Positions 45,114 to 63,999 of a DNA stretch of 64,000 bases are shown piece by piece; position 1 is the stretch's first letter, and each line of letters starts with the position of its first letter. The position numbers and the translations under genes are program-made. A model generated the notes under the pieces. The model searched no databases. It worked only from the letters and a program-made list of their open reading frames with translations, and was not told the DNA's origin. Source of the DNA: Candidatus Bathyarchaeota archaeon (lineage in GTDB: Archaea; Thermoproteota; Bathyarchaeia; Bathyarchaeales; Bathycorpusculaceae); the NCBI GenBank assembly GCA_026014545.1, contig JAOZIH010000004.1, forward strand, positions 1 to 64,000, read 5' to 3'.

Positions 45114-45179
45114 GAAGCGGGGTTAGAGATGATAAATTTCATATACAAGGCGCCTAATCTACAATGCGGGTGCAGGTTA

Positions 45180-46244
45180 ATGAGCGCATCATACTTCAAT
45201 AGGAAATTGGAGCCTATAAGGGTTAGAGAGAAAAGCGTTTCGCAGCTTCTGGCGGAAATGAGCAGAACTGCCTATCAAGGGCGGAAGCTGGGTGAAGCCG
45301 TGGACATTTGGGAGAAAATGCTTCAGGAAAAGGATTTGACTATTGTTATGGGTTTGGCGGGTTCGATGAGCACTGCTGGCCAGTGGACCATTGTGAATTG
45401 GCTTATGGAGAACCGCTTCATTGACGTGCTGGTTTCCACAGGCGCTAACGTCTCCGAGGACATCGTTGACGCCATGGGCTTCGGCTACTGGCAGGGCAGC
45501 CACATGGTGAACGACGAGGAATTGCTGAAAGCAGATATTAACAGGTACTATGATGTGTTCGGAAAGGAAACTGACTACCGCAAAATGGAAGAGCTAATAA
45601 CGGATTTCATCATGACCTTGAAAACTGATCATGTATATTCATCTGCAGAATTCTTCTACCTCCTCGGCAAATATCTCAGCGAAAGGAAAATTCCCGCTAT
45701 AGCCGCGGTTGCCTACGAAAACGGTGTCCCAATTTTCAGTCCAGCCATGGTTGACAGCGCTTACGGCGAAGCGTTCCTGATGGCGAAAAACAGGGGCCAC
45801 AATATAATCCTCGACAGCGTTAAAGAATTCGATCAGTTCGTTACTATCGGCACCAAAACACAGGACATCGGCGTCGTCTACATCGGCGGTGGAGTGCCTA
45901 AAGACTTCACACAGCTGATCGCCATATCGGTTTCGCCGAAGACAAACGACCAAGGCGTCAAACACAGGAAAGGCGGCTTACGCAAAAGCTTGCAGGAATA
46001 CTATTACCCGCACAAGTACGCCATACAAATAACCACTGACTCGCCACAATGGGGCGGCTTAAGCGGTTGCACGCTGGAAGAAGCCATTAGCTGGGGAAAA
46101 ATTAACAGCCAAAGCGGCACCCGTGCCGTCTGCTACTGCGACGCCACCATCGCCTTGCCGCTGATCTCGCACGCGTTATGTGAACGGGTGAAGACTAAGC
46201 GTAAAGGGCCAGACATGTCTTGGCTCTTCAAAGAAATAGTCTAA
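45180..46244 (+). CDS. Deoxyhypusine synthase-like protein
   Basis: A roughly 354-residue member of the DHS family. The NAD-binding stretch LTIVMGLAGSMSTAGQWTIV, the DVLVSTGANVSEDIVDAMG region and GVVYIGGGVPKDF are family segments. The active-site lysine motif is kept in LEEAISWGKINSQSGTRAV. The His pocket differs from the other paralogue. DHS-like proteins can act as homospermidine or agmatine-linked enzymes or lack deoxyhypusine activity. ATG 45180 is chosen; an upstream in-frame ATG at 45129 would add 17 residues lying close behind the dispersed repeat. Confidence 0.85.
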   Translation: MSASYFNRKLEPIRVREKSVSQLLAEMSRTAYQGRKLGEAVDIWEKMLQEKDLTIVMGLAGSMSTAGQWTIVNWLMENRFIDVLVSTGANVSEDIVDAMGFGYWQGSHMVNDEELLKADINRYYDVFGKETDYRKMEELITDFIMTLKTDHVYSSAEFFYLLGKYLSERKIPAIAAVAYENGVPIFSPAMVDSAYGEAFLMAKNRGHNIILDSVKEFDQFVTIGTKTQDIGVVYIGGGVPKDFTQLIAISVSPKTNDQGVKHRKGGLRKSLQEYYYPHKYAIQITTDSPQWGGLSGCTLEEAISWGKINSQSGTRAVCYCDATIALPLISHALCERVKTKRKGPDMSWLFKEIV

Positions 46245-47179
46245 GCTCTGCTAAGCCGGGTTAGCAACGCGCTTGCCATGAGGGGCAGTATCAGCGAAGC
46301 GTCGCCTTCAATCATGACGCGTTTCGCTTGCGCGCTTATTTTTCCCCATGAAACCGCCTCGCGCGGTCTCGCGCCGCTGAGGCTACCATCCCACTCGTCC
46401 GCGGTGCTTACGTAAACGACGTAGTCTAAGCCGTCTTTAAACTGGTTCCACCATATCGTGTGGTGCTTTGAGATGCCGCCGCCAACGATTAGCGCTCCTG
46501 TTTTTTTAGCTGTGAAAATTATGTCGTTTAGTTCTCCTTCGTCCTTCAGCAGGTTAAGCCTAAAATCGTGGTCTTGGCTGAAAAGCCATGTTTGATAGCC
46601 GACGGCGCCGTCTGTTATGCCTGGCACGTAGACGGGTATGCCGTTTTTCGCCGCCCAATAGAGTATGGAAGTCTCGTTGCAGCAGCGTAAGCCTATTTCG
46701 CGGCACAGTTGGCTGGCGGAGACTTCGCGTATGCCCTCTTTCCAGAGGCTTTCCAGCAACAGCTGCATCTTCTTTTCGATTATTGTTCCGTAGCTGTCGT
46801 TTGGAACCAGCACGTTGCCTAAGCGGTTTATGCCCAGTTCATGCAGCTTAGCATCGTTCATGACGAAGGAACCCTTGTAATAGTTTCGCCAACACCTTGC
46901 CATATCATGATCCAGCGTTCCACAGGTTGTGATGATAACGTCAACGAGTTTCCTTTTTGCCAGTTCTTTGAAAACGCCACGCGCGCCCGTAGCCACAAGG
47001 TTGCCTGTGAAAGAAAGAAACTTGACACAACCAGTTGCGCGAATCATGCGCGCCATTATGTCTACGCCAACGGCGACTTTGCCAGCTGTGAAGCCCCACG
47101 CCTCTTTCATTTGATTGACAAGCTCGTTTGCCGTCATGTTTTCGCTGAACTCGTAATCTTTGACAGTGTCCTTCAGCAT
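46241..47179 (-). CDS. dys: Deoxyhypusine synthase
   Basis: A 312-residue NAD-dependent enzyme that transfers an aminobutyl group from spermidine to a lysine of aIF5A. It matches canonical DHS more closely than the neighbour: FLSFTGNLVATGARGVFKEL, IITTCGTLDHDMARCW, IVGGGISKHHTIWWNQF, and DEWDGSLSGARPREAVSWGK with the catalytic Lys. Its stop shares the CTAA tetranucleotide with the convergent DHS-like gene. No eIF5A gene is seen here. Confidence 0.9.
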   Translation of the reverse strand: MLKDTVKDYEFSENMTANELVNQMKEAWGFTAGKVAVGVDIMARMIRATGCVKFLSFTGNLVATGARGVFKELAKRKLVDVIITTCGTLDHDMARCWRNYYKGSFVMNDAKLHELGINRLGNVLVPNDSYGTIIEKKMQLLLESLWKEGIREVSASQLCREIGLRCCNETSILYWAAKNGIPVYVPGITDGAVGYQTWLFSQDHDFRLNLLKDEGELNDIIFTAKKTGALIVGGGISKHHTIWWNQFKDGLDYVVYVSTADEWDGSLSGARPREAVSWGKISAQAKRVMIEGDASLILPLMASALLTRLSRA

Positions 47180-47240: not shown

Positions 47241-48119
47241 TTATTCGGCTAAGTAGGCGATGATTTTTTCGTATAAGTCCTTATCTCTCTGGTCTTCGTA
47301 GCCAGCGTAAATGCTCGGGTTATCATTAACCTCCACCACGACATAGTCGCCATCAACTTCCTTGATGTCCACGCCGTAAAGACCTTTCCCGACGACCCGG
47401 CAGGCTTTCAACGCCACTTCCTTCAGCCTCTCGGGCGCGTTTCTCTTATTAACAGCCACGGTTCTGCCCCAGATAACCGTAGGCTTGCCTCGGAGTTTTG
47501 CGCCGTGCTTCCATCTGCCCTTCGGAATCATGTACTTGCACACGTATAAGACCTCGTCGTTTAAAACGCCGACGCGCCAGTCAAAGGCTGTTGGCACAAA
47601 TTTCTGCACGGCTATCACGTCGGATTTTCGGAAGAAGCGTTTGGCGACGTCTCGGAAGCTGGTTTCGCATGCGGCTTTTTCCACGTAACGCGAGAAGCTG
47701 GTGTAAGGCGCCTTTATCACAACGGGCTTTCCCAAAGTGTCAAACGCGTCTAAAATTTTCTTGTGATTAAGCTCATACTTGCTTAGGAACAGCGTGGGAA
47801 TACGGGGTATATTGAATTTCTCAAATAACGAGTATTGATGGATCTTGTTCGCGCAGACCTTTATCGATTCTGGGTCGTCGATTACCTTCAGCCCCAGCGT
47901 CCAAGCAGTTTTGGAAACCACGTACGCGGTGTTAAGCGGGTCAGTGGTTGCTCTGATAAAAACAGCATTGTATTCGGGTATTTCTGGTATGTCTTCTTTG
48001 AATAGAAACTTGAATTCACGTCCCGAGTTTTCTGCGGCGCGTTTAAAGTTTTGAAGGGCCGCTTCTTCCGCGGGATCAGAGAAATTATATTTCTCTACGA
48101 AACAGGCAATTTTAGTCAT
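47241..48119 (-). CDS. RimK-type ATP-grasp ligase
   Basis: A 292-residue ATP-grasp protein. After an N-terminal domain (AVFIRATTDPLNTAYVVSKT), the core shows DDPESIKVCANKIHQYSLFE, LGKPVVIKAPYTSFSRYVEK, AVQKFVPTAFDWRVGVLNDE, and the metal-binding DYVVVEVNDNPSIYAG. This is closest to RimK/LysX-type amino acid or peptide ligases. It overlaps the RLAN-like gene by 8 bp at the stop and start. The pair together resembles RimK proteins with an RLAN N-terminal domain; the substrate is not predictable. Confidence 0.85.
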   Translation of the reverse strand: MTKIACFVEKYNFSDPAEEAALQNFKRAAENSGREFKFLFKEDIPEIPEYNAVFIRATTDPLNTAYVVSKTAWTLGLKVIDDPESIKVCANKIHQYSLFEKFNIPRIPTLFLSKYELNHKKILDAFDTLGKPVVIKAPYTSFSRYVEKAACETSFRDVAKRFFRKSDVIAVQKFVPTAFDWRVGVLNDEVLYVCKYMIPKGRWKHGAKLRGKPTVIWGRTVAVNKRNAPERLKEVALKACRVVGKGLYGVDIKEVDGDYVVVEVNDNPSIYAGYEDQRDKDLYEKIIAYLAE

Positions 48120-48852
48120 TCACTGGATCATCCTGCTTGGAGAGCAGCAAAACTTCTCGAGATATTTGTTGTACATCGTTTGGAGAAAGTTCATTTCTTT
48201 TTAAGGGTTGAAAACCGCAGAGATACGCTTTCCCTTCAACTTTTTGGATGTGTAGTTTACAAACTGGAATCTTAAAGACCTCATAGACCTTTTCCAAAAT
48301 TTTCCTTACTTCCTCGTCATCAGTTTCGCATTTGCCAAAAAGCGATTTAAACGAAAACATTTCTCCCTTAAGCGGTTGAGCACAAACAGCGAACTTGTAG
48401 TTCATGCTTAAGCTCTTGATTGCCCTGTACAACGCGCTTTTGTTGTGCGCTATTTTATAGCCACTGTAAATGAACGGGTTAACTGCGAAAACAGTTACTG
48501 GAAAACCAAGTTCAAGAACTATTTTCTTCACAGAATCAGTCACAAGAAAGGGTATCGTGGGAATCCCTGCCTTGGAGGCTCTAAGCAGCAAGATTGGGGT
48601 GCGGTTAGCGTCGATTATGTTTTCACTTGATGGAATTACTGGGTTACCGATTACTTCTGCATGCAAAGATACGTAGTATCCAATTTTCAAATAACGATAG
48701 TCACTGTTAACGTTGAAAATGAAGTCTTTAATTGTTGACTCAAGAAACTCTGAAGGACGCATTACGCGAATAGTAGCAGTTAGGTCAAGGTCAGAGACGA
48801 CCAACACCCATAGGACACCAGACAATTGAAAGGTCGTTATCACTTTAGCCAT
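48112..48852 (-). CDS. Stand-alone RLAN-domain-like protein (RimK ATP-grasp partner)
   Basis: A 246-residue protein. Its FNVNSDYRYLKIGYYVSLHA segment, with AEVIGNPVIPSSENIID after it, resembles the RLAN domain that is usually the N-terminal half of RimK-like ATP-grasp proteins. The second half (KIAHNKSALYRAIKSLSMNY, KIPVCKLHIQKVEG) has no family I know. It lies immediately upstream of the RimK-type gene and overlaps it by 8 bp, so the two are translated together. This suggests a two-protein version of a normally fused ligase. Confidence 0.7.
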   Translation of the reverse strand: MAKVITTFQLSGVLWVLVVSDLDLTATIRVMRPSEFLESTIKDFIFNVNSDYRYLKIGYYVSLHAEVIGNPVIPSSENIIDANRTPILLLRASKAGIPTIPFLVTDSVKKIVLELGFPVTVFAVNPFIYSGYKIAHNKSALYRAIKSLSMNYKFAVCAQPLKGEMFSFKSLFGKCETDDEEVRKILEKVYEVFKIPVCKLHIQKVEGKAYLCGFQPLKRNELSPNDVQQISREVLLLSKQDDPVND

Positions 48853-49013: not shown

Positions 49014-49610
49014 TTATGTTGAGGGAGCAGCGGGTTGAGTTTCGCTTCCCGTGGCAGAAGCAGTTGGTGTCTGCGCAACTGTGCCAGCAGACTGTGTTGT
49101 TGTGGGCTGCGCCGGTTGTGTAGATGCTTGCGGAGTTGCAGTTTGGCCAGTTCCGGATTCAGATTTAGGCGAGGCAGGTAATATTTGGATTTTTTCTGCC
49201 ATGGGATGCAGCAAATCCGGCGGTGGGTAAGGTGTGTTTAGAATAGATGCGAGAATGTAGATTGAGTTAAAAACATGCTGGTAAACTGTGAAGAGGATTT
49301 GGGGAATATTTGTTTTCGGGTTCGCTTCCAACTTCTTTTTAACGTCGGCAGGTGCGCCTTCCAAGGTTACGACGCCAGCGGTAGAGTATTTCACAACATT
49401 TGGTTTGGTAGTTATAGACAAGTTGAAGTTTAGGTCAACTTGGTTACCGCTTCGCTTTTGCTCTTCAAGCTTGGCGCTTACATCAAAAAATAAATCTTCT
49501 GTAGGCAGATATTGGCTGGTTCTTTCAGCTTGGAGGCTGTCTATACGGATGGAAACGATGACGCCTGTAACAGAATATTTTGGGCAGATTACCGATTCCC
49601 CTAACTTAAT
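49014..49610 (-). CDS. SecB-like chaperone with no ordinary start codon
   Basis: The C-terminal 135 codons have a TTG start at 49421, but the same frame is open upstream to a stop at 49611-49613 and continues a SecB-like fold. Upstream come GVIVSIRIDSLQAERTSQYL, DLFFDVSAKLEEQKRSGNQV and DLNFNLSITTKP. Inside the shorter frame follow STAGVVTLEGAPADVKKKLE, then NIPQILFTVYQHVFNSIYIL and the proline run TPYPPPDLL, matching the SecB PNILFPYVRE and PPINF region. The only codon at the upstream edge is ATT at 49610; an ATG at 49614 is one base out of frame. A T/P/A/Q-rich tail of about 55 residues ends it. Start and integrity are unresolved. Confidence 0.7.
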   Translation of the reverse strand: MKLGESVICPKYSVTGVIVSIRIDSLQAERTSQYLPTEDLFFDVSAKLEEQKRSGNQVDLNFNLSITTKPNVVKYSTAGVVTLEGAPADVKKKLEANPKTNIPQILFTVYQHVFNSIYILASILNTPYPPPDLLHPMAEKIQILPASPKSESGTGQTATPQASTQPAQPTTTQSAGTVAQTPTASATGSETQPAAPST

Positions 49611-49674
49611 TCATTTATTTCATATTTAACTTTTGTAGCTTCTGAAATCACATTCATTAATGAGGAGAGAGCCG

Positions 49675-50241
49675 TTATTTATTGGTGAAATCTATAAAGG
49701 CAGCAGGAACCGAAAGTTCAGTGGCAAATTTGAAAACCTCATCGGTAAGTGAACCGCTCTTTGCTCGCAGCACTATCTTTTGAGGAATGTCATCTTCAAT
49801 GTAAACCATGTAATTGACGTTTTTTCCTAAACCGAGACGCTCGAACTGCTGAACTGCGGCTCTGAACTTTTCGATGCTCTGAATTTTTTCACCGATTTTC
49901 TCGATTGCCTCGAATAGCATTTCTGCTTGTCCCTGCTCAGTTGAAGACAGCAAAATGTCACCTGATTGGATCCAAACTGATGTTTCAGTCTTTCCTTTTC
50001 CGCCTTTTTTGCCAGAAGCCTTTTTTTCAGTAGTTTTTTTTGGAGGACCACGCAGGTTTTTTTGCAGCGCAGCTAACTTTTGATACCACTCGTCATTTTT
50101 GTGGTTTTCTTCGCAGCTTCGTAATAGCGCGCCTAGCCATTGACTGTAGTCCTCATATAGCAGCTTATACTGGTCTAACTGCTCGCTTATGTATTCGTTC
50201 ATTTCTTTTAGGGTAGTAAATGTCCGAATTTCAGTTCCCAC
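49675..50241 (-). CDS. Unknown helical protein with basic linker
   Basis: A 188-residue protein I do not recognise. The first 65 residues look like helices (LKEMNEYISEQLDQYKLLYE). A strongly basic low-complexity linker follows (PPKKTTEKKASGKKGGKGK). The C-terminal part has amphipathic helices (MLFEAIEKIGEKIQSIEKFR) and mixed strands with VNYMVYIEDDIPQKIVLRAK. There is no signal peptide or membrane segment. It lies 53 bp after another unknown gene and 64 bp before the SecB-like frame, so the three probably form one operon, divergent from the MoxR/VWA pair. Confidence 0.75.
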   Translation of the reverse strand: MGTEIRTFTTLKEMNEYISEQLDQYKLLYEDYSQWLGALLRSCEENHKNDEWYQKLAALQKNLRGPPKKTTEKKASGKKGGKGKTETSVWIQSGDILLSSTEQGQAEMLFEAIEKIGEKIQSIEKFRAAVQQFERLGLGKNVNYMVYIEDDIPQKIVLRAKSGSLTDEVFKFATELSVPAAFIDFTNK

Positions 50242-50294
50242 TGCATATCACCCTCATGGGGCTATTTTTTGCCGCCGTTAGCAACGGCCAGAGA

Positions 50295-50867
50295 CTATTT
50301 TTGAGCAGCTAAATTCAGTGTCGCCATTGTATCGGAGACCCTTTGGATTTCCTTAGTTACCGTTGACAGGAATTGAATTCTGTTTTCAATTTTGGTTTTC
50401 TGTGCGCTAGTAAGTGTTTTAAATTTCGGCATCACGTCTTGAATTACCAGAATCATGAGTTCGCGATTTTGTTCATCTGCCAGATTTCGCAATTCCATAT
50501 TTCCATCTTCGTGTATCAGTGCGATGTGGCCTGTAGGGTCGACATAAGCTTGCTTGATGTTGCCAACTTCAGCAGGCAAAACCGCGTTTGAAACGGGTAT
50601 TGATGTTGCCAAAGGCTGCATTAGTTTGAGGAAGGACTTGAAGAATTCTGCAACTAAAAGTTTTTCTTCAGAGGACATCTCGCTTATTTGGCCGATGTCT
50701 TCTGCTAGGCTTCTTATAGTTTCTGCGAATTCTTGGAGAGACATCTGGGTGGGTTGTGTTGGTTTTCCTTCTATTTTAGTTGAGTAGGTTTGTTGTTCAA
50801 TGATTTGGCTCAAGGTTGATCGATATGGCTTACGTTGTTCGCTGAAAAAAGTGCTTGTATGTTTCAA
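50295..50867 (-). CDS. Unknown soluble protein, first gene of the operon beside MoxR/VWA
   Basis: A 190-residue protein of unknown family. An N-terminal polar segment (FFSEQRKPYRSTLSQIIEQQ) precedes a helical region (SLQEFAETIRSLAEDIGQIS and EKLLVAEFFKSFLKLMQPLA). A short strand motif (VDPTGHIALIHEDGNMELRN) and more helices end the protein. No metal site or signal peptide is visible. It starts on TTG and is divergent from the AAA+ gene across about 147 bp, which contains TATA-like stretches for both directions. Confidence 0.75.
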   Translation of the reverse strand: MKHTSTFFSEQRKPYRSTLSQIIEQQTYSTKIEGKPTQPTQMSLQEFAETIRSLAEDIGQISEMSSEEKLLVAEFFKSFLKLMQPLATSIPVSNAVLPAEVGNIKQAYVDPTGHIALIHEDGNMELRNLADEQNRELMILVIQDVMPKFKTLTSAQKTKIENRIQFLSTVTKEIQRVSDTMATLNLAAQK

Positions 50868-50960
50868 GAGTTACACACATGAAAATTTAGCTTGGGGCTT
50901 TTGGGGAAGTGGATTGTAGTTTTTGTAAACAAGAGAGCATATAACAAGTCGTAATACACA

Positions 50961-50972
50961 ATATTTATATTC
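50961..50972 (+). promoter_or_regulatory. TATA-like promoter of the MoxR/VWA genes
   Basis: AATATTTATATT lies about 30-40 bp before a strong GGAGG site (51001-51005) and the ATG at 51015. This spacing fits a transcript starting near 50990. The divergent operon probably uses the other end of the same gap. Confidence 0.55.
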
Positions 50973-51014
50973 ATTTTTCAAAACAATAAATAACGTCTCC
51001 GGAGGCTACTCCAC

Positions 51015-52040
51015 ATGAGTTATGGACATCAAGGTCTAAGAGAAGAGCGTGCAATCAGCAGAATTGAAGAAGTCTCCTCCCTTAGACACGACAGATTCAA
51101 AGTAACGGTGTCCATAAACAAGGAGCGCCCAATGTCAAAATCACCCTTATACGAAAAATATAACATTCAAAAATACGATCTCCATCCGAATTATAGTTTT
51201 GCACACCTCGAAGACATGATACCCAAAAACACGCCAGAGTACATAGACAATGGCCAACATTATGTGGAACGCATAGTACGCGCGCTCTACTACTTCAAGC
51301 AGTGCGCCTTAATAGGTCCCTCAGGAACGGGCAAAACACACGTAGTTTACTTAGTAGCAGAACTTTGCGGTTTGCCCCTCTGGGAAGTAAACTGTGGATT
51401 ACAAACATCATCCTACGACCTCATCGGCCGCTTCATCGGTCTCGGAAAAGAAAACTGGGTTGACGGATTACTAACACAGTGGCTCAGACTCGGCGGAATA
51501 ATGTATCTCGACGAAGCCAACATGATGAAACAGGATGTGGCTACGAGACTAAACCCTGTTTTAGACACCAGAGGCCACCTCGTGCTTAACGAAAAAGACA
51601 ACGAAGTAATAGAACGGCACAAATACGGCTACCTCATCATCAGCATGAACCCCTACTCAGCCGAGTTCGCAGGAACCAAACCATTAAACGCCGCTATGAG
51701 AAGACGCATGGCAGTATGGATAAACTTTGACTATCCAAGTGTTGGCGAAAGGATCGCGCCAAATGAAGTGAAAATGCTTCAAAAGCGAGCAAAAATAGAC
51801 TATGACACAGCCTATAAAGTTATACAGGTAGGCGCTGAACTTAGGCGGCAATATAAAGTTGGAGACTTGCCCTACGGTCCATCTCTTGGCGATTTAATAA
51901 ACTGGGCTACGTTGATATATGATGGGAACACACCGCTTGAAGCAGCGGAAGAAACAATCATAGCATTGACGAGTGATAACGCAGACATTCAAGATGATGT
52001 TAGACGTGTTATAGAAACTGTATTCGGCAACTCACGGTAA
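51015..52040 (+). CDS. MoxR/CbbQ-type AAA+ ATPase
   Basis: A 341-residue AAA+ ATPase. The Walker A is ALIGPSGTGKTHVVYLVAEL, the Walker B GGIMYLDEANMMKQDVATRL, and sensor 1 and the arginine-finger area are LIISMNPYSAEFAG and ALNAAMRRRMAVW-like sequence. The lid is helical. This is the MoxR/GvpN/CbbQ branch, which remodels metalloenzymes with a VWA partner. GGAGG nine nucleotides before ATG 51015 marks the start. A second in-frame ATG at 51132 also has AAGGAG upstream, giving a version without the first 39 residues. The VWA partner follows 24 bp later. Confidence 0.92.
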   Translation: MSYGHQGLREERAISRIEEVSSLRHDRFKVTVSINKERPMSKSPLYEKYNIQKYDLHPNYSFAHLEDMIPKNTPEYIDNGQHYVERIVRALYYFKQCALIGPSGTGKTHVVYLVAELCGLPLWEVNCGLQTSSYDLIGRFIGLGKENWVDGLLTQWLRLGGIMYLDEANMMKQDVATRLNPVLDTRGHLVLNEKDNEVIERHKYGYLIISMNPYSAEFAGTKPLNAAMRRRMAVWINFDYPSVGERIAPNEVKMLQKRAKIDYDTAYKVIQVGAELRRQYKVGDLPYGPSLGDLINWATLIYDGNTPLEAAEETIIALTSDNADIQDDVRRVIETVFGNSR

Positions 52041-52064
52041 CCTAATATTTCAAGGTCCATCTCT

Positions 52065-53786
52065 ATGGGATTCATTGATTACGCGTGGAACATTTCACTT
52101 CAGAGGGACTGCTTAAAATTAAGAATGCTTATGGATTCCACGCTAAATCAGCCTACACTTGAACCAGACACCTTTGGCTACACTATAAAACTGCCAACTG
52201 CACACTCACAAGATCCGGAAAAGATTTCATATTTATGTTATAATTTTCCATTCAACAGAGGTGGAAAAGTAAAAATTGGGCGGTTGTTCCGCGCTTCTGT
52301 TCTGCACTTAACAACACATACAATGTTACCTTTGTCGAAAGAAAGAGTTGCCCCAAAGTTTTCATCAAATTCTATTCTTCAAGTTTTTGCGAAAACTTTG
52401 GCAGTGGACATGTGCGTGAACGCTTACATCCAAACAGCGCACAGAGATAAACTTGCTGACATAGCATATGCAAACACTATGTTCTTCATGAAACTTAAGC
52501 CATGCGAAAGAATCATGACGCCTTCAACAAGAGCAATGGCTGCATTACTTGCAAAAACCAGCACAGGAATCATTAAAGGCAAGCTTGACATGGAACTGGA
52601 AAACACCGTAAACGAATTGAACGATAAATTGATGACTCTGAAAAAAGCAGCGGCATCATCATTTGCTGGAAACACGGTTAACATTGAAGGGCTATTTGAC
52701 GAAACAGTAAACGGCATAATCGCAGAGTTGGAACCATTTGGCCCTTTTTTGGAAACGCCGTCTTTGCCGCACACAGAATATATAGGACCATGCAGCATCA
52801 TAAATCAAATGGATGTACAGCAAAACCATGAATTTTACGAGGTTTTTTGTAAAGCCATCCAAACATTAGGCGGCTCGATTCTAAATGAAGTTGATTTTGA
52901 CGCGTTGTGGCAAAAAGAACAGGAAATAGAGGCTCTACAAGCTTTTGATTCTGAACAATATCAAAAAACGAAAAAAGAGAAAATTCTTTCAAGAATCCAA
53001 CCGTTTGCTGCATGGACAAGATTCAAAAAAGTCTGCTTTCCAGAGGAAGATTATACGCAGTATCTGCGAGCTAGAACACTTATCCAAGGAAGCAGCAAAA
53101 GACTTCTAGACAGCTTAAGGGTAGCGCAAAACACTCTGGATGATGACTATGGCAAGGACATAGGTCAACTCGATTTGCCCGCCGTAATTCAGGCGATTGC
53201 AAGCAAGAAACCGGCGACAGACGTTTTCTTTAAAGAAGAGTATCTAAAACAAAGTTTTGCATGGTCAATCGTTTTTGATACAAGTGCTAGCATGCAAGTG
53301 AAAGGCGAGTACGCAAGGGCGTTGCTCATATGCGTTGCCGAAGCAGCAAAAGAATTACTGATGGATCCAGGTTCATGGTCACTTTTCGGTTTTAACGATA
53401 AATTTTACATACTAAAAGACAGCAGCGAAGCCTATAATCGGCAAGTACGCGCTAGAATTGGTGGGCTAAAATTTGAAGGACTATCTTACTTGCCTGATGC
53501 TGTTCGTGTTGCAGGCCAGGTTTTGACCAAGCGTTTCGAAGAACAACGCGTACTAGTAGTAATTTCTGACGGTTATCCATACGGCTATGCAAATATGCAC
53601 CCTGCATTAGCATCGACAGTTAACCGGTTGCAGAAACAAGGGGTAATAGTGATTGGCATAGGAGTCGAAACCGAAAAAATGAGCACGTTATTTAAGCTGA
53701 ATGCGGCGATTAATACTCAAAAAGACTTGATCAAACGCTTCGCCAAAATATATACAGATGCCTCTGCCGCGTTGCTTGAAACTTAG
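52065..53786 (+). CDS. VWA-domain partner protein (CbbO/NorD-like)
   Basis: A 573-residue protein whose C-terminal third is a von Willebrand factor A domain. The MIDAS loop is SIVFDTSASMQVKGEYARAL, followed by SLFGFNDKFYILKD and VISDGYPYGYANMHP. The N-terminal two thirds are helical without a recognised domain, as in NorD and CbbO proteins. Together with the preceding AAA+ ATPase it should form a metal-dependent adaptor that brings the ATPase to its client. No client enzyme of known type is encoded nearby. Confidence 0.88.
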   Translation: MGFIDYAWNISLQRDCLKLRMLMDSTLNQPTLEPDTFGYTIKLPTAHSQDPEKISYLCYNFPFNRGGKVKIGRLFRASVLHLTTHTMLPLSKERVAPKFSSNSILQVFAKTLAVDMCVNAYIQTAHRDKLADIAYANTMFFMKLKPCERIMTPSTRAMAALLAKTSTGIIKGKLDMELENTVNELNDKLMTLKKAAASSFAGNTVNIEGLFDETVNGIIAELEPFGPFLETPSLPHTEYIGPCSIINQMDVQQNHEFYEVFCKAIQTLGGSILNEVDFDALWQKEQEIEALQAFDSEQYQKTKKEKILSRIQPFAAWTRFKKVCFPEEDYTQYLRARTLIQGSSKRLLDSLRVAQNTLDDDYGKDIGQLDLPAVIQAIASKKPATDVFFKEEYLKQSFAWSIVFDTSASMQVKGEYARALLICVAEAAKELLMDPGSWSLFGFNDKFYILKDSSEAYNRQVRARIGGLKFEGLSYLPDAVRVAGQVLTKRFEEQRVLVVISDGYPYGYANMHPALASTVNRLQKQGVIVIGIGVETEKMSTLFKLNAAINTQKDLIKRFAKIYTDASAALLET

Positions 53787-53967: not shown

Positions 53968-54888
53968 ATGGAACTCGCAATGGAAACCCATACTGACATG
54001 ATGAAAATCTACAGCGAAAAAAGCCAAACATGGAAATACATAAAAAAAGACAAAAACTACACCAAACAATTATCAGCCATTGAAGAAACCCTTTCACGCT
54101 TCGGTCTTCTGAAAAACGAGATCAGAGTATACTTGTATCTTGCAAGATCAGGTGAAAAAAAGGCAAGCGAAATAGCTGAAGCAATCGCCCTGCACAGAAC
54201 TGAAACTTACCGAATACTTCGCGATCTTGAAAAGAAGGGAATAGTGTTTTCGGTTTTCGCAAAACCACTAAAATTCACAGCTGTACCGCTAGACAAAGCC
54301 ATAGACATGCTCGTAGAAGCACAGAAAATGAAAATTAAGCTTCTGGAGAAAGAAAAAGAAAACCTTGTGGAACTTTGGCTATCAATACCACAGCCTAAAA
54401 TGGAAAAAACTCCGAAGGAACTTTTCCAGATGCTGCAGGGCGAGCAGCAAGTAGTGCTAAAAGCTGAGGAACTGCTTGAAAAAACAGAGAGAGAATTACA
54501 GCTTTTTGCACCCGCAGAGTATCTGGCACATCTCTATTACAGCGACTTCACCGACAAGCTGAAAAAGAAACTCGGAAAAATCAACATAATCTTGCTGGTT
54601 GAGAACTCTCCTAAAAGCATATTCTTCATTGAGCAAATGCAATGGCCGAAGCACAAGTACAAATTGGTAAACGCCCAAAAATTACCATGCTTTATGATCT
54701 CCGACAAAAAAGAACTATTAATCGCTTTTCAAGACGAAGACAACGCAGGTCAAGACGAAGAAAAACGAAGAGACAAGACAGCGGCAATTTGGACAAACTA
54801 CAACGCATTCATTTGGACGCTGCAGATGCTATTCCTTAAACTGATGGAAACAGAAGCACATGAAACCTTAATTCAAAACCGAGTTTAA
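53968..54888 (+). CDS. TrmB-family transcriptional regulator
   Basis: A 306-residue regulator with an N-terminal winged helix (LSRFGLLKNEIRVYLYLARS, ASEIAEAIALHRTETYRILR, LEKKGIVFSVFAKPLKF). A coiled helix follows, and a C-terminal region like that of TrmB/Ssh7 proteins (LLEKTERELQLFAPAEYLA). Family members sense sugars or other ligands. A ribosome-binding site AAGGAG lies 11-12 nt before the ATG and a TATA-like ATTATAAAATATATA near 53893. Its stop overlaps the convergent beta-propeller gene by 4 bp. Confidence 0.88.
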   Translation: MELAMETHTDMMKIYSEKSQTWKYIKKDKNYTKQLSAIEETLSRFGLLKNEIRVYLYLARSGEKKASEIAEAIALHRTETYRILRDLEKKGIVFSVFAKPLKFTAVPLDKAIDMLVEAQKMKIKLLEKEKENLVELWLSIPQPKMEKTPKELFQMLQGEQQVVLKAEELLEKTERELQLFAPAEYLAHLYYSDFTDKLKKKLGKINIILLVENSPKSIFFIEQMQWPKHKYKLVNAQKLPCFMISDKKELLIAFQDEDNAGQDEEKRRDKTAAIWTNYNAFIWTLQMLFLKLMETEAHETLIQNRV

Positions 54889-56177
54889 AGCACATTTTTC
54901 GATTTATGCCGCGTTAAAAGCAATAAAATCGCAATTAACAGCAAGACTGCGGCTAAGCATACCGCTACATAAACTATCCATGCTACGCCGCCGCTTCCAA
55001 CATTAATTTTTACGATGTAAAAATCATAAGCGCCGCGGCCAATTGAGTTTGTCCATCCAGCCATAACATATGTATCTTCCGCAACCTCTACGACACCATA
55101 AGCTTCTTCATAGTTGCCTTTGCCGACAGTAGCCTGCCACAAAACATTACCTGCATCATCTATTTTGAACAGCCAGAAATCTCTGCAGCCTTCGCCAAAG
55201 GAGAAAGTGAAGCCGCCGACTAGGTAGCCACCGCTCGCCGAGTTGGAAATGCATGTTGGCATATCAAAACTTGAACCGCCAACGGTTCGCTCCCAAATTA
55301 GGTTACCTTCGAAGTCTACTTTTATTACCCAAGCATCACTATCGCCTGCTCCTTTTGATCGTGTATCGCCCACAAGTAAAAGACCGCCATCGGCATCCAG
55401 CATTGCATACGCTTTATCGCTTTGGGCGCCGCCATAAGTCCTATTCCATAACAAGTTACCTTCAGCGTCAATTTTCAACAGCAGAAAATCATAGTCATCA
55501 TTCCCAGCCGAATTCTTGTAACCAACTATAAAGTATTGATTGCCAGCCGAAGACAGCACAGCTCTGCCTGCATCATCCATGCCCCAATCATACGTTTTAC
55601 TCCAGACTAAATGACCGTCTTCGCTTATTTTTACAACCCAGACATCGGAGCCGCTGCCGCCAACAGGGTTTGTTAGACCTGCAAGTACAAATCCGTCTTG
55701 AGTTTGCACCGCAGAGAATAGCTTGTCCACTCCACCGTTGCTAATGGAGAATTGCCATAGCGGCTTGCCATCGTGATCAGTTTTGACGACGTAGCCGTCT
55801 GTGTCGCCGGATGTTAAAAACGTGTTGCCGACAAACAGAAAGCTATCATCTAATATTAGCACATAGCGGAATTCACTGTTTTGAGTGTCAGAAAACGTTC
55901 GATTCCAAAGCATATCGCCCTCATCGCCAAGTTTTAGAGCCAACGCCATTGTCTTATTTGGCTGAAGCGACGTCGTCGATCCGACAACTAGAAAGCCTTC
56001 TGGAAGAGCAGCCGCGTAAAAAGCCCGATCATCGCCTGCTCCGCCATACGTTTTCTCCCAAAGCGCATCTGCCTTGTAAACGCCAGATGCTGCAACGCTA
56101 AAGTTTGGAAGCATAATTACCCAAGAGCCTGCCAGCAGGAGATAGAACAGCAGCGCAATTTGTCTTTTTGCTAACAT
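54885..56177 (-). CDS. Membrane-anchored surface protein with propeller-like repeats
   Basis: A roughly 430-residue secreted protein. It has an N-terminal signal (LFYLLLAGSWVIMLPNFSVA), about seven 50-residue repeats of the type W-x-(R/K)-T-Y-G-G then G-x-(L/V)-V-G-x-T, ending in D-x-W-V-x-K-I, and a C-terminal membrane helix (YVAVCLAAVLLLIAILLLLT) before KSKNVL. The repeat number suggests a beta-propeller facing outside. The function is unknown; such proteins may bind glycans or other surface proteins. ATG 56177 has AAAGG upstream; ATG 56195 would add six residues. It converges with the TrmB gene. Confidence 0.8.
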   Translation of the reverse strand: MLAKRQIALLFYLLLAGSWVIMLPNFSVAASGVYKADALWEKTYGGAGDDRAFYAAALPEGFLVVGSTTSLQPNKTMALALKLGDEGDMLWNRTFSDTQNSEFRYVLILDDSFLFVGNTFLTSGDTDGYVVKTDHDGKPLWQFSISNGGVDKLFSAVQTQDGFVLAGLTNPVGGSGSDVWVVKISEDGHLVWSKTYDWGMDDAGRAVLSSAGNQYFIVGYKNSAGNDDYDFLLLKIDAEGNLLWNRTYGGAQSDKAYAMLDADGGLLLVGDTRSKGAGDSDAWVIKVDFEGNLIWERTVGGSSFDMPTCISNSASGGYLVGGFTFSFGEGCRDFWLFKIDDAGNVLWQATVGKGNYEEAYGVVEVAEDTYVMAGWTNSIGRGAYDFYIVKINVGSGGVAWIVYVAVCLAAVLLLIAILLLLTRHKSKNVL

Positions 56178-56362
56178 CCGCGTGCCTTTCTCCATAGAGT
56201 GAAATTATTTGCTTTTTTTGCGCTAAAAGTCTTTTTAACCTTACCGTAATTTATGGCACCGACTTCCTATTCACAAAAAAGCAAGCGATTGAAGATCATT
56301 CAAGTACACATGTAGTATAAACATTGAAAAATAGAAAGAAGCACAAAAGAAGGTGAAAATGC

Positions 56363-56643: not shown

Positions 56644-57420
56644 CTAAAGTCTAGTGCAGGTTACGTTTGTCCTAACGAATATCCCGCGTAAGTCGTGGCA
56701 GTGCACCGAAACTATTACCGGATCATCCGGGTTTGTTGTTTCTGCGGTAAACGTAATGGAATATGTACCGTTGCCGTAGTCTGTTATGCTTGGCGCTTTA
56801 ACTTGAATCCATTCTTCCTGTGTAAGCGAGCCGTCTCTTTCAAAGTAAACAGTGAAGTTCTCCGCTGAAGCAAGATTGCCCTCGTTACGAACCGTACATA
56901 TTAAAATTGCAGACTTCAAATTATCTTGCCGCATCCAAACGCCGCTTACACTAAGCTCTGAAGTAACATTAACAGAGTATTCTTCCCGATAACTTGTTGA
57001 CAGCCCGGATGCGTTTATGCGAAAGCCCACGTAGGCGCTTGAAATCCCTTTTCCGTTAGCTGCCCAGTCTATCCAGAAGCCATTCTGATAAGGCGCAGTA
57101 TTCGATGGCGCAAATTCCATGCTGAACATTACATTATACAAGCGCTTTTCAACCACAGCAACAAAGCGATTTAGATTTGTGGCTAGAATATTCGTGGAGC
57201 CTCCATTAGAAACGTTAGCCAAAGCACTTACGACCGTATGCATAATACCTAACTGATACGCTGACAAGGCGTTGTTAGCGTCTTCCAAGCTGTAAAGTAC
57301 TCGGTTCTCTTCAGTTTTAATAACGTATACAGCGGTGGAAAGTATCAACAGAGTTATTATTAGCGCGACAATGATAAGCACTTGCCCCGAATTATGATGA
57401 CGAAAACCGTGCAGTGACAT
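56644..57420 (-). CDS. Pilin-operon secreted protein with N-terminal membrane helix
   Basis: A 258-residue protein. After a short basic start comes GQVLIIVALIITLLILSTAV, a single long membrane helix like pilin-type anchors. The rest is extracellular and threonine/asparagine-rich (ALANVSNGGSTNILATNLN, NVTSELSVSGVWMRQDN, with a short fold VYFERDGSLTQEEW). It is the last gene of the pilus operon, four bases after the previous one. It may be a minor pilin or assembly component. Confidence 0.72.
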   Translation of the reverse strand: MSLHGFRHHNSGQVLIIVALIITLLILSTAVYVIKTEENRVLYSLEDANNALSAYQLGIMHTVVSALANVSNGGSTNILATNLNRFVAVVEKRLYNVMFSMEFAPSNTAPYQNGFWIDWAANGKGISSAYVGFRINASGLSTSYREEYSVNVTSELSVSGVWMRQDNLKSAILICTVRNEGNLASAENFTVYFERDGSLTQEEWIQVKAPSITDYGNGTYSITFTAETTNPDDPVIVSVHCHDLRGIFVRTNVTCTRL

Positions 57421-57424
57421 CAGG

Positions 57425-57850
57425 CTAATTCACCACAGATAGTTGTAACCTGATGATGTAGACGGCATAGTTGCGTGCTGCCGATGCGCACACGTAATTC
57501 ACTACCACAACTTCGTCGGCGACCGCGCTTCCACTGCAGATTGGCACGTCATTAAGGGCCGTCATGTTTTCATCAAAAACTGTGAGGTTAAACCATACTG
57601 TAGGCGCAAGCAAAGATTGAACCGCACTTTTTAAGCCTGTCCAGTTTTGGTTCTCCACCGCATTAGCTAAGTAACCGTCACTGTCCAAGCTTATTAGAAG
57701 GTTATACGCTGTCGTGGCAAGATTTCCCGCTGACTCCTCTAGACTATTCTGAGTAACTTGTATAAGCGAAAGCGAGGATAGCAAAAGAAAAGCGGCGAAA
57801 ACAGCTTCGATTGTGTGTATTTGCCCTCTACGGTTTCTCAGCAAACTCAT
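57425..57850 (-). CDS. Prepilin-like protein (type III signal)
   Basis: A 141-residue pilin-type protein. The start NRRGQIHTIEAVFAAFLLLS fits archaeal class III signals: a basic residue, G-Q and a hydrophobic helix with Glu near position +5. A prepilin peptidase could cut after the Gly. The mature part is short, with a VWFNLTVFDENMTALND strand pair and one Cys pair (VPICSG, NYVCAS). It overlaps the previous gene by 4 bp. Confidence 0.75.
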   Translation of the reverse strand: MSLLRNRRGQIHTIEAVFAAFLLLSSLSLIQVTQNSLEESAGNLATTAYNLLISLDSDGYLANAVENQNWTGLKSAVQSLLAPTVWFNLTVFDENMTALNDVPICSGSAVADEVVVVNYVCASAARNYAVYIIRLQLSVVN

Positions 57851-58905: not shown

Positions 58906-60423
58906 TCAAGGGACTATAGCTGTTACGTCAAACATGCCTGAAAGGAACTGTTGAGACAGCACCAGCGACAGATACGCCACTGCTGCTAACACGGCGGAAT
59001 GTTGGAAGCCGGCGCCGAGATTGCCCTCGCTTATTTTCCCTATGAAGAACCCTGAGATCCAGCATTGAAGTATGATGCCAACGGAAAACATCCGCAGTTG
59101 CTCCTGCATAGCCATGTAAGCTACTGGCGCTAGGCTCATGCTTACCGCACTGGACATCATGTAAGTTGTTAAAGCTACAATTGTTGTTGTTACGGCAATT
59201 AGTATGCTCCAGATAAAGGCAAGAATTATGTAGGGCTTCAGCAGCGCCCGCTTGTTAATTTGCAGTTCCCGCTCTTTTTCGCTATAATCCGAAAGTATCT
59301 CAAGCGACTGGGTTGAGCTACCACCGATCTCGATTGTTTCAACCAGCATCGCAAAATTTACGGTGACAAACCAGCTTCTTATGCTCCGCCGCAAATTATC
59401 ATATGTTTTCCTTAATGGTGTGCCCCATTCTATCTGGCTCCGCAGCAAATCCAAGTATTTAGAGAATGAACCCGGATACCTGCGCTTGGTAGCGTGGATT
59501 ATGCTTTTCTCTGGGGAAAGACCGATTTTTCTGGCTTCGGTGATTTCTCTAACAAGGCTGGGAACAGCGTCTTCAGCGTCATAGTTCATTTTCGCAATAC
59601 GCCAATATTGAACAGCTGGAATTGCTGAAGCAGACACCAAACCCGCCGTTACAATTTCAGGTAACCCCACTGGCTTTATCAGCTCAGCTAACGACGGAAG
59701 CAAGATAAACAGTGAGAGAGCTATGCCAGTAGCCATGAAGATGATAGCTGCTTTTTTGTACAAGTCCTGCAGGCTTTCAAAGGAGCTTTGCTGCATATTA
59801 TGCGCGATAAGTATGAAGAACAACGATATTACGGGCATAAGCACAAAAGCCACTATGTAGGACATTAAAGGGGAAATAGTTATTGACGTGTTAGTTAGCA
59901 GCTCCAGCGTATTGGTCGAAGAAAAAACGACGAAAAGAATATAGGCACACAGCACAACGATAAGCATCACCGTGTAAGCCTCAACCAAAGTTGCTATTCT
60001 CTCGACTGAACGGGACATTGAATTATGTCTGAGCTCGAAAATGGCGCGCAATTCACTTTTCATGTAATCAACTGTTTTTCCACCACTTCTTATTGACGCC
60101 GCAAAGCCGCTTATGAAGTTCCTGTAAAGTTTCGAGTTTGTACTTTCAGCTCTCTGAGCCATAGCTGGCAGCAAGCCTTTTCCTAAAACCTCTACTTGCC
60201 GAATTATTTCTTCTGCTTCTTTCTGGAACATGGGGAAAAAGTTCATTTTCCGCACTTTTTTCCAGCTGTCATAGGGTGAAACACCGCTTGCAGCCAAAAG
60301 AGTGAATATCATAACTACGAAAGGCAACTCACGCTCGATTTTATCTTTTTCTTCACTCGCAATTTTCCGCAGGAATCCTTTAATCTTGCCAACGAAGCTG
60401 CTGGAAGATTGAGCCGTCATCAT
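58906..60423 (-). CDS. TadC/ArlJ-type pilus assembly membrane protein
   Basis: A 505-residue platform protein of the T2SSF/TadC family, in which two similar halves each follow the family pattern. The first half has FVVMIFTLLAASGVSPYDSW and KLYRNFISGFAASIRSGGKT. The second has PSLVREITEARKIGLSPEKS and VNFAMLVETIEIGGSSTQSL. Clusters of membrane helices follow each half. It works with the ATPase encoded immediately upstream (3 bp gap). It may drive secretion or fibre assembly. Confidence 0.92.
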   Translation of the reverse strand: MMTAQSSSSFVGKIKGFLRKIASEEKDKIERELPFVVMIFTLLAASGVSPYDSWKKVRKMNFFPMFQKEAEEIIRQVEVLGKGLLPAMAQRAESTNSKLYRNFISGFAASIRSGGKTVDYMKSELRAIFELRHNSMSRSVERIATLVEAYTVMLIVVLCAYILFVVFSSTNTLELLTNTSITISPLMSYIVAFVLMPVISLFFILIAHNMQQSSFESLQDLYKKAAIIFMATGIALSLFILLPSLAELIKPVGLPEIVTAGLVSASAIPAVQYWRIAKMNYDAEDAVPSLVREITEARKIGLSPEKSIIHATKRRYPGSFSKYLDLLRSQIEWGTPLRKTYDNLRRSIRSWFVTVNFAMLVETIEIGGSSTQSLEILSDYSEKERELQINKRALLKPYIILAFIWSILIAVTTTIVALTTYMMSSAVSMSLAPVAYMAMQEQLRMFSVGIILQCWISGFFIGKISEGNLGAGFQHSAVLAAVAYLSLVLSQQFLSGMFDVTAIVP

Positions 60424-60426
60424 TCG

Positions 60427-61995
60427 CTACCCAACTGTTTTATCTAAATCTAACGTGTTAACAGAACTGTTCAATGCTTTGTGTACGCTTCTGAAGTCCC
60501 GAAGTCCCTTTTCAACCAGCATAAGCAGTATTTTCTTTCGCCGCTCCAATTCCTGAGCAACAACGCTAAAGGGTATCTCTAGGTTCTTTGCTATTTTATT
60601 TAGTAAATAACTTTTTTCGAGATTCTGCTGGAACGTGTCAGTTGATGGATTCCACGTGAACACGTCATTAATAGCGCAGGTAGAGTCTATTTCTGAAATT
60701 CTAATGAAGCGCCGGCTGCTGGACATCTTGCGGTTCAATGACACAAAAGTTGGCATCTTCACCTGTTTAACAACAATCACGCAGTTCATCAGCGGTATTA
60801 TTCCCCGTGGGATGTTCATTGGCGGCTGAGTTAACCGCGTAATTGCTGCTTCCACATCCTCGGCGTGCAGCGTGCAGAGTCCACCGTGACCTGTAGCTAA
60901 AGCTTGAAATAGTACATAGGCTTCTTCACCTCTAACCTCGCCTACAAGAATTAACGTTGGACGATGTCGTACCGCTGATTTGATAAGGTCATAAAGCGAT
61001 ACTTCACCTTCACTCTCGCCGCCGAAGCCGGGACGTGCAATGGTTGAAACCCAGTTTTCCTGAGGCAGGTTAATCTCGGCTACTTCCTCGACGGAGATTA
61101 TCTTAAAGTCAGGTCGTGCAAGACAAGCGATGGCGTTAAGCGCTGTGGTTTTGCCTGCGCCTGTTGCGCCGACTATCATCATTGACATTTTATTTTCCAT
61201 CAGCAACCACAAGTAGGCGCCTATTGTTTCATTGATGGTTTCGTTCATTATTAGATCTACAATGGTAATCGGGTCTTCTCTGAACTTTCTAATGGTGAAG
61301 CTTGTCCCTGCAGGTGTAGTTTCTTTCCCATAGGCTACCGCAAGCCTGTGCTTCCCCGGAAGGGTTATGTCCACAATGGGATGCGCGATGCTGACGTGCT
61401 TTCCTTCCCGGTGAACCAATCGAGCCACGAAATCGTCAAGTTCCTCTTCAGAGCTGAAGATTATGTTTGTTCGCATGCTTTCGTATTTTCTATGCCATAG
61501 GTAGACGGGTTTGTTTACGCCTAAACAGCTTATGTCCTCAATATAATGATCGCATATTAATGGGTCTATCTTGCCATAACCGACGAGGTCCCTTTCTATA
61601 TAATAAAGGATTTTCTTTAAGCCTATTTGGTCGATCTCCGCTAAGGCCTTTGCGTGCTCATCCATTATACTGGGCAATTGCCTCTTGAAGGAGTCAGCGA
61701 GGGTTTCATCTGCGCGTGGCGCTTTCAACTCGTATTCTAAAATGTTCTTTAACCGCTTGTACGCCTCACGCTCCTCTATAGTCATGGCAAGCTCATCAAC
61801 AACATAGAAGAAGCTGCCTTCCGTTTCTTCTTGGAATATCCATGCGTATGCAAAAGGCGGCTTAAGCGGATAACTTTCTATCTGTACGTAGCCTTCAGGT
61901 ATACGCGCACCCTGGATTCCCAGGTACCCGAGCAATTCTTCATCTTGAATTTTCGGTTTTTCTTCCTCTTCTTCCTTCTTTTTCTTTCCAAACAA
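60427..61995 (-). CDS. TadA/ArlI-type pilus assembly ATPase
   Basis: A 522-residue hexameric secretion ATPase of the GspE/TadA/ArlI group. After a charged N-terminus there is an N-domain, then VDITLPGKHRLAVAYGKET. The Walker A is MMIVGATGAGKTTALNAIAC, the Asp box IISVEEVAEINLPQENWV, and the Walker B LILVGEVRGEEAYVLFQALA followed by the His box TGHGGLCTLHAED. All essential motifs are present. It powers assembly of the pilus encoded around it. Confidence 0.94.
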   Translation of the reverse strand: MFGKKKKEEEEEKPKIQDEELLGYLGIQGARIPEGYVQIESYPLKPPFAYAWIFQEETEGSFFYVVDELAMTIEEREAYKRLKNILEYELKAPRADETLADSFKRQLPSIMDEHAKALAEIDQIGLKKILYYIERDLVGYGKIDPLICDHYIEDISCLGVNKPVYLWHRKYESMRTNIIFSSEEELDDFVARLVHREGKHVSIAHPIVDITLPGKHRLAVAYGKETTPAGTSFTIRKFREDPITIVDLIMNETINETIGAYLWLLMENKMSMMIVGATGAGKTTALNAIACLARPDFKIISVEEVAEINLPQENWVSTIARPGFGGESEGEVSLYDLIKSAVRHRPTLILVGEVRGEEAYVLFQALATGHGGLCTLHAEDVEAAITRLTQPPMNIPRGIIPLMNCVIVVKQVKMPTFVSLNRKMSSSRRFIRISEIDSTCAINDVFTWNPSTDTFQQNLEKSYLLNKIAKNLEIPFSVVAQELERRKKILLMLVEKGLRDFRSVHKALNSSVNTLDLDKTVG

Positions 61996-61998
61996 TAT

Positions 61999-62445
61999 TT
62001 ATGATCCTCCAATAAGCGTTAGATACACGGCGTCTGCCTCCACGCGGCATTCCAGCACGGCTGGGCCTGAGCCGCTTACGTAGGCGCCTGAAGCAGAAAC
62101 CTCTGCGGGAATATGCACTACATATTGGCCCTGCTGGATGCTTGTGCCGAAGCCTACTTCAACCCATGCTGTTGCAGAGTCATTCGCGATTTTAATCCAG
62201 TAGCTTTTTTCTCCTATGAAGGTGGGGACATTAAGCGAGAGCTGCGCCGTTGCATTATTTCTTTTTGTGCATGTAACCAGCGCTAAGCTTTCTGTCGAAA
62301 CATATCTTGCCAAATTGAGCAACTGCTGCTCTTCGGCTTCGGCGCGAATGTTCATGGCTGAAAGGCTGCATGCGCCGATGATTAAGGCGCCAACGATGAT
62401 TGTTGCAAACAAGGTGTAAATGTAGCTTGGAACTATGGACGGCAT
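61999..62445 (-). CDS. Pilin-operon small secreted protein
   Basis: A 148-residue protein with an N-terminal helix (YIYTLFATIIVGALIIGACS) and a beta-rich outer part (FIGEKSYWIKIANDSATAWV, GQYVVHIPAEVSASGAYVS). It sits 3 bp before the ATPase gene. It resembles minor pilins of archaeal Tad-like systems, but no exact family is seen. Confidence 0.72.
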   Translation of the reverse strand: MPSIVPSYIYTLFATIIVGALIIGACSLSAMNIRAEAEEQQLLNLARYVSTESLALVTCTKRNNATAQLSLNVPTFIGEKSYWIKIANDSATAWVEVGFGTSIQQGQYVVHIPAEVSASGAYVSGSGPAVLECRVEADAVYLTLIGGS

Positions 62446-63453: not shown

Positions 63454-63999
63454 TTAAGAGGCTTCTACGTTGGTCTCTTTATAGTACATGGCTTGTGACG
63501 TGAAGACGGTTATTGCAACGGTTAAACCAATGTCGTTGACAGTAATGCTGTCGGGGCTAGCGATGTAAATTATCATAGTTTTGCCTGATTCAAGCGTAAG
63601 ATCGGTACTTGCCTGCTCGAATATGTAATCAGTAGTGCCGATGGTTATTTCTCCGCCATCAACTAAGGTTGTGTTAAATGTCAAATCAGCGGATACCGAG
63701 TCTGTGGTGACGTTATAGAAAACATTGCTCCATGATATCTCCTGGCCTCTAACAGTTAGTTTATCGATGACAACATCGCGGCCTCCAGTATTTATGATCA
63801 TGATAGCTGCTTCAGAAGAGTAACTTGTGCCATTTGCTGCGTACCAGACATGCTGCTTTGTTAGGTGTAGGCTTTCTTCTTGCACACGCGTGCTCGTGAC
63901 GTTGATAGCAAAGTAGGTGACGACTCCAGCGAGTAGCACTGAAACAACGAGGATGATCAGCGTGGTTACGACTGTACTCAGAGCCCAACGATTCTTCAA
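63454..63999 (-). CDS. Archaeal pilin-type protein, possibly partial at the window edge
   Basis: A 181-residue protein. The N-terminus KNRWALSTVVTTLIILVVSV is the archaeal type-IV-pilin/DUF1628-like signal and helix, with AGVVTYFAINVTSTR after it. The outer part is Thr- and Ile-rich (GRDVVIDKLTVRGQEISWSN). The only start seen is TTG at the last codon in the window, so the true start may be beyond the right edge. It is separated from the next gene by 177 bp, which contains poly-T and A-rich stretches, and could be the major pilin. Confidence 0.78.
   Translation of the reverse strand: MKNRWALSTVVTTLIILVVSVLLAGVVTYFAINVTSTRVQEESLHLTKQHVWYAANGTSYSSEAAIMIINTGGRDVVIDKLTVRGQEISWSNVFYNVTTDSVSADLTFNTTLVDGGEITIGTTDYIFEQASTDLTLESGKTMIIYIASPDSITVNDIGLTVAITVFTSQAMYYKETNVEAS

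Follow-up and report, generated by a model that had tools for sequence, protein, structure and literature searches.

In a 64-kb window of a Candidatus Bathyarchaeota archaeon genome (assembly GCA_026014545.1, contig JAOZIH010000004.1, positions 1-64,000 of the forward strand), five open reading frames between positions 49014 and 53786 form a divergent block. An AAA+ ATPase (AAA, 51015..52040) and a VWA domain protein (VWA, 52065..53786) are encoded on the plus strand, and a SecB-like protein (SecBl, 49014..49610) and the proteins U2 (49675..50241) and U1 (50295..50867) on the minus strand. An initial annotation made from the sequence had described such a MoxR/VWA pair facing a minus-strand trio. 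All five frames are indeed present, and alignments of relatives reveal protein-level constraint on each of them. The module is also conserved in other Bathyarchaeia and in Nitrososphaeria, where linkage is kept far beyond chance and the minus-strand proteins share the same context. There is a strong tie, by linkage and by co-inheritance, between this module and type IV pili (T4P).

The five proteins of the divergent block

AAA belongs to the CbbQ/NorQ class of MoxR ATPases. It scores well above the Pfam cut-offs for AAA_5 (76.2 bits, cut-off 22) and CbbQ_C (48.9 bits, cut-off 20.6), and its nearest single-domain relatives in the PDB are CbbQ and NorQ. The Walker A sequence GPSGTGKT and the Walker B region LDEAN are invariant among its members, mean column identity amounts to 77% (16 members from several families), and the start at 51015 is supported because an N-terminal YGHQG is kept in most members. 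Midasin was rejected as the closest relative of AAA, since its whole-chain E-values (4e-52 to 2e-58) are sums over several AAA domains and its best single domain reaches 53 bits against AAA vs 94 bits for CbbQ. The VWA protein, which adjoins AAA in nearly all intact loci, combines a large N-terminal region with a C-terminal domain above the Pfam cut-offs for VWA_2 and VWA. Its metal ion-dependent adhesion site (MIDAS) is intact: among the relatives, DxSxS is invariant (73/73), and in 72/73 each the threonine position holds T or S and the second aspartate is retained.

The frame initially taken as SecB-like, 49014-49421, covers only the C-terminal part of SecBl and is too short: the frame stays open up to 49610, about 60 codons further, and conservation within the 50-member family extends almost to its start. 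The fold occupies approximately the first 130 codons and is followed by a low-complexity tail of proline, threonine and glutamine. The proposed kinship with SecB holds at the level of the predicted fold and not at that of sequence. No sequence search matches SecBl to SecB, the Pfam SecB family is absent in all 50 members and NCBIfam contains no match either. On the other hand, the AlphaFold2 model built from 50 relatives (pLDDT 87, pTM 0.79) presents strands followed by two helices, the order found in SecB, and in a Foldseek comparison with the PDB ranks 1-15 are all SecB structures (probability 1.00, TM about 0.4-0.55), headed by Rv1957 (5mtw, E 1.1e-4) and followed by 1fx3, 1ozb and 1qyn, including the SecB proteins of H. 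influenzae and E. coli. According to this model SecBl has the SecB fold, i.e. a four-stranded sheet plus two helices, and likely descends from SecB, a descent that is not shown by sequence. A resemblance to Trypco1, displayed by one member out of 50 (E 1e-3), was taken as chance.

Neither ATG nor GTG nor TTG occurs in the SecBl frame ahead of the start of the fold, and translation may possibly begin at an AUC or AUU at codon 8. SecBl genes often lack all three codons between the upstream stop and the fold (window 49580-49610, minus strand; loci L063-L065, L071, L074, L076, L100, L168 and L170), and the recurrence of a GGGGAATC-NNN-AT(C/T) motif suggests a conserved AUC/AUU start codon, which could imply translational control. 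In the SecBl genes of L167, L169, L171 and L175, a possible TTG or GTG follows some codons later.

A distant SecBl paralogue (36-57 bits, no Pfam match) is encoded in nearly all Bathyarchaeia searched (L163:5994-6464, L164:6355-6777, L165, L166, L178 and L162). It is situated between S24e/S27ae/Spt4/RPB7-like genes and, mostly, the L3-L4-L23-L2 ribosomal cluster (genes named by eye) and is possibly a housekeeping archaeal SecB-like protein. SecBl genes unlinked to AAA (L167, L168, L169, L170, L171 and L173) often reside beside genes that, by eye, read like STT3/AglB and GPT/AglH of N-glycosylation, which might reflect a link between pilin export and glycosylation. At one further locus (L174:3984-7380), U2 and SecBl adjoin genes reading, again by eye, like CheW, CheB and a methyl-accepting protein.

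Neither U1 nor U2 reaches the cut-off of any Pfam family, even when every relative is scanned, in agreement with their initial listing as unknowns, and both are new soluble families. U1 is predicted, with a pLDDT of about 97 for residues 41-190, to fold into two long helices that enclose a three-stranded sheet in the order of the chain. Its helix-strands-helix order resembles that of prefoldin, but the Foldseek E-values (0.4-0.7) are not significant and this candidate was dropped. From the alignment, U2 appears to comprise a helix, a lysine-rich basic linker, another helix and a C-terminal strand pair. Pentatricopeptide matches of U2 are repeat artefacts, as no single stretch passes alone, and homology between U1 and U2 was rejected (hhalign probability 0.2). 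Away from the module, a U1 domain is also found as a fusion with a long protein, 530-540 aa in size and probably a coiled coil (L159:5701-7323, L160:6578-8176, L161:5120-6742).

A distant relative of U2, about 142 aa long, is furthermore encoded in most Bathyarchaeia genomes searched. In 6/6 loci examined its gene directly follows that of a PilA-type pilin and precedes two others, one for a protein reading like Roadblock (about 225-310 aa) and one for a smaller protein (weak Roadblock/LC7 match). Because these distant paralogues adjoin PilA-type pilins, the U2 superfamily is pilus-linked independently of AAA and VWA. The cassette of pilin, U2-like, Roadblock-like and small Roadblock-like genes (L144:5963-6388, L145:6698-7126, L146:6577-7029, L148:6026-6487 and neighbours) is present in Bathyarchaeia both with and without the AAA/VWA module.

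Linkage and co-inheritance with type IV pili

The initial annotation stated that no known client was adjacent and that the target was unknown. This does not hold, as the VWA gene is followed at a distance of about 3 kb by a T4P operon and similar genes are recurrent neighbours elsewhere. The operon occupies the minus strand from 56.6 kb to the window edge at 64 kb and unites an archaeal T4P set: three pilin-like/TadE-like proteins that carry hydrophobic segments at the N-terminus (56644-57420, 57425-57850 and 57847-58890; assigned by recurrence in T4P loci, with weak or no Pfam matches), a TadC/PilC-like platform protein (58906..60423, T2SSF E 1.2e-17), the assembly ATPase (60427..61995, T2SSE E 1.6e-32), two further pilin-like proteins (61999-62445 and 62449-63276) and an archaeal type IV pilin that reaches the window edge (63454..63999, Pilin_N E 3.3e-5, slightly below the curated cut-off). 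The nearest solved relative of the ATPase is 2oap, the GspE protein of Archaeoglobus (E 9e-102 vs 1e-68 for the archaellum protein FlaI), a difference that favours a pilus over an archaellum, although fla genes were not searched singly.

In Nitrosopumilales the module is placed inside the pilus operon, with U2, U1, two pilins and SecBl reading leftward and, diverging from SecBl, AAA, VWA, a pilin, the T4P ATPase, TadC and a large secreted protein reading rightward (L128, L131, L133, L134, L135 and L141). Pfam detects T2SSE and T2SSF on the genes of L135 as well as a LamG domain on a large pilin-like protein. At least three arrangements exist in Bathyarchaeia (that of the window, U1-U2 convergent downstream, and SecBl divergent upstream), and many of these loci are flanked by genes for a T4P ATPase, TadC, a prepilin-peptidase-like protein and pilin-like proteins. 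In 36 loci the sequence extends for 8 kb or more to both sides, and of these 23 contain a T4P gene and 19 a T4P ATPase. Such ATPases number only 1-5 per genome of about 1.6 Mb, and the chance expectation is by our estimate roughly 4%.

The module is lineage-restricted. When the AAA alignment was run against 84,980 species genomes, it retrieved 145 relatives, the best 80 of which stem from Bathyarchaeota and Thaumarchaeota/Nitrososphaerota, except for a few records titled just 'archaeon' or 'bacterium'. When 300 genomes spread over the phylum were inspected, AAA was present in 31, namely in the order of the window, in one other family, with the same match positions as the Nitrosopumilaceae set, and in one further genome.

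Co-inheritance was assessed in 61 relatives, 33 with and 28 without AAA. U1 accompanies AAA in 33/33 genomes and occurs in 1/28 of the others; the corresponding figures are 31/33 vs 1/28 for U2 and 30/33 vs 2/28 for a strong SecBl orthologue. The T4P ATPase of the window type, called at 60% identity or more plus two fragmentary cases, follows the same pattern (27/33 vs 2/28, Fisher p 2.6e-9). Three genomes are doubtful as cases of absence: G015 and G159 exhibit pilus ATPase fragments only, and in G042, the sole genome with U1 and U2 and without AAA, the contig begins inside the cluster and AAA-VWA was probably lost at its end. A second T4P ATPase paralogue (43-56% identity) served as a control and is unassociated with AAA (p 0.26). 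The same is true for IscU, an upstream neighbour of AAA in one clade, which is found in 23/33 genomes with AAA and in 19/28 without (p 1.0). The result was replicated in 101 Nitrosopumilaceae, where AAA and the ATPase occur together in 26 genomes, AAA alone in two, the ATPase alone in one (a fragment) and neither in 72 (p 1e-20), with p 0.17 for a T4P ATPase paralogue of 40-45% identity. The contrast with these controls in the same genomes is a stronger argument than the p-values themselves.

Between the VWA gene and the pilus operon lie a TrmB-family transcription regulator (53968..54888, plus strand), recurrent as a neighbour of the module, and a predicted secreted or membrane-anchored repeat protein with a weak beta-propeller match (54885..56195, minus strand), the position of which is kept only among close relatives. 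On the other side of the block, two adjoining minus-strand genes (47241-48852) look as if a RimK-type ATP-grasp enzyme with its RLAN domain had been split between them, and a convergent gene pair (45129-47179) reads by eye as deoxyhypusine-synthase homologues.

Proposed function and alternative explanations

We put forward, with a probability of about 0.62, that AAA, VWA, SecBl, U1 and U2 constitute a cytoplasmic chaperone and remodelling module that is accessory to, and dedicated to, one T4P lineage of Bathyarchaeia and Nitrososphaeria. In the NorQD system the VWA protein acts as adaptor and binds the client through its MIDAS, and the MoxR ring remodels this client in a reaction that requires ATP hydrolysis (PMC9976466). 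By analogy, we infer that a MoxR hexamer would use the VWA protein as its adaptor and that the MIDAS would grip a pilus client for ATP-driven remodelling, in the way that NO reductase is handled by NorQD. As clients, the assembly ATPase and TadC platform would be likeliest, or else precursors of pilins or adhesins. In the cytoplasm SecBl could hold precursor or pilin chains that are still unfolded, before export or insertion, and for U1 and U2, both soluble and strictly linked to the AAA/VWA pair, a role as scaffold or targeting factors joining the module to the pilus base is proposed. A more far-reaching idea is offered tentatively and falls a little short of even odds: the pilus would have an ATP-driven chaperone line of its own in the cytoplasm, in which a MoxR/VWA remodeller is combined with a SecB-fold holdase of archaeal type and with two new families of adaptors. 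If true, SecBl would be the first pilus-dedicated SecB-type chaperone and, for an archaeal lineage, the first SecB-like protein dedicated to helping export.

A MoxR/VWA pair whose client had been regarded as unknown would gain a specific and testable one, the type IV pilus; three uncharacterized soluble proteins would become likely pilus parts in Bathyarchaeia and Nitrosopumilaceae; and a SecB-fold family would be placed in archaea, from which hardly any chaperone of this kind is known. The module also makes concrete the questions of how archaeal pilins and large adhesins are kept export-competent and which roles MoxR/VWA pairs fulfil beyond metalloenzymes.

Several observations weigh against this proposal. 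No T4P gene is found within about 10 kb in 13 of the 36 well-covered loci, and six relatives with AAA lack the window-type ATPase, some of them being incomplete metagenome-assembled genomes. The Fisher tests ignore phylogeny and treat genomes as independent. SecBl is located away from AAA in many genomes, so that the five genes do not always form one operon, and it shares with SecB the fold and little sequence (TM about 0.5, 7-18% identity). U1 has no significant fold match in the PDB by Foldseek. To our knowledge, archaea lack SecA, and a SecB-type export route is therefore not established.

Chief among the alternatives is a regulatory role, which Makarova et al. (2016; PMC4858521) proposed for the vWA and MoxR/GvpN pair. 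The pair and its partners would then act as an ArnA/ArnB-like signalling switch on T4P expression or activity and not as assembly chaperones. A TrmB regulator adjoins the module, helix-turn-helix proteins neighbour it in thaumarchaea and SecBl-U2 stands beside chemotaxis-like genes in the one genome mentioned above, all of which fits this model. We nevertheless consider it less likely, albeit the most serious competitor, as a SecB-fold chaperone and a NorQ-class remodeller suit the handling of proteins more than the control of transcription, the locus already has a transcription factor apart from these, and Pfam detects no DNA-binding, kinase or FHA domain in any of the five proteins. A looser association, in which AAA and VWA are T4P accessories and SecBl, U1 and U2 merely travel along with separate housekeeping functions, would explain why SecBl is so often unlinked, beside N-glycosylation-like genes, and why a weak paralogue is near-universal beside ribosomal genes. 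It appears improbable given that U1, U2 and the strong SecBl orthologue have nearly the same distribution as AAA over the 61 genomes and occupy the same divergent cluster in two classes.

Maturation of a metalloenzyme or an Fe-S protein, as by CbbQO, NorQD or CoxDE, is suggested by CbbQ and NorQ being the nearest single-domain PDB relatives of AAA and by a NifS-IscU-NifS set directly upstream of AAA in one Bathyarchaeia clade. However, this adjacency is best read as shared synteny because IscU is equally frequent with and without the module. NifS/IscU was rejected as client for want of co-occurrence with AAA, no metalloenzyme recurs across clades, and a metal-protein client is accordingly given very little credence. 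Still less probable is a defence function of the VMAP kind, for which bacterial MoxR-vWA ternary systems with a third protein provide a precedent (PMC7159879): Pfam and PADLOC reveal no effector domain, VMAP or iSTAND component, PADLOC returns no credible match and PHROGs nothing specific. Moreover, gene content is stable and co-inherited with the pilus, and AAA and VWA are highly conserved, unlike genes of conflict systems.

Comparison with known systems

With NorQ/NorD and CbbQ/CbbO the module shares a CbbQ_C-bearing ATPase and an adjoining gene for a MIDAS-containing VWA protein, and a hexameric remodeller would be expected here as well. It differs in that its recurrent neighbours and co-inherited partners are T4P genes, a SecB-fold protein and U1/U2; neither Rubisco nor NO reductase is among the recurrent neighbour families, although the neighbours were not searched singly against these two. 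GvpN of gas vesicles is likewise a MoxR ATPase, but AAA matches the NCBIfam GvpN equivalog weakly and far below its cut-off (35.7 vs 266.8 bits), and no gas vesicle genes were seen. SecB and Rv1957 of toxin-antitoxin-chaperone systems are the best PDB matches of SecBl and share its predicted fold, whereas SecBl resides in an archaeon, fails to match Pfam SecB and is accompanied by no visible toxin-antitoxin pair. ArnB of the ArnA/ArnB archaellum regulators is a VWA protein too, and MoxR-linked VWA proteins have been assigned to the ArnB subfamily (PMC4858521). The VWA protein studied here, in contrast, is located in T4P loci and has an AAA partner instead of an FHA partner.

The closest precedent is the pair of a vWA protein (arCOG02900, ArnB subfamily) and a MoxR/GvpN ATPase (arCOG00441) that Makarova et al. 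(2016) predicted as regulators in thaumarchaeal T4P loci. Judged by family and context and not by arCOG membership, this is the same pair in the same T4P setting, so that the initial description of the block as an undescribed system does not apply to AAA and VWA. It may still hold for their partners: the main text of that paper, in which the words 'SecB' and 'chaperone' were not found and whose supplementary tables may hold U1 and U2 as unnamed arCOGs, assigns the pair to regulation, and no other description of the module was found in the open-access literature searched. Relative to that precedent, SecBl, U1 and U2, their strict co-inheritance with AAA and the extension to Bathyarchaeia, including unlinked loci, appear to be new.

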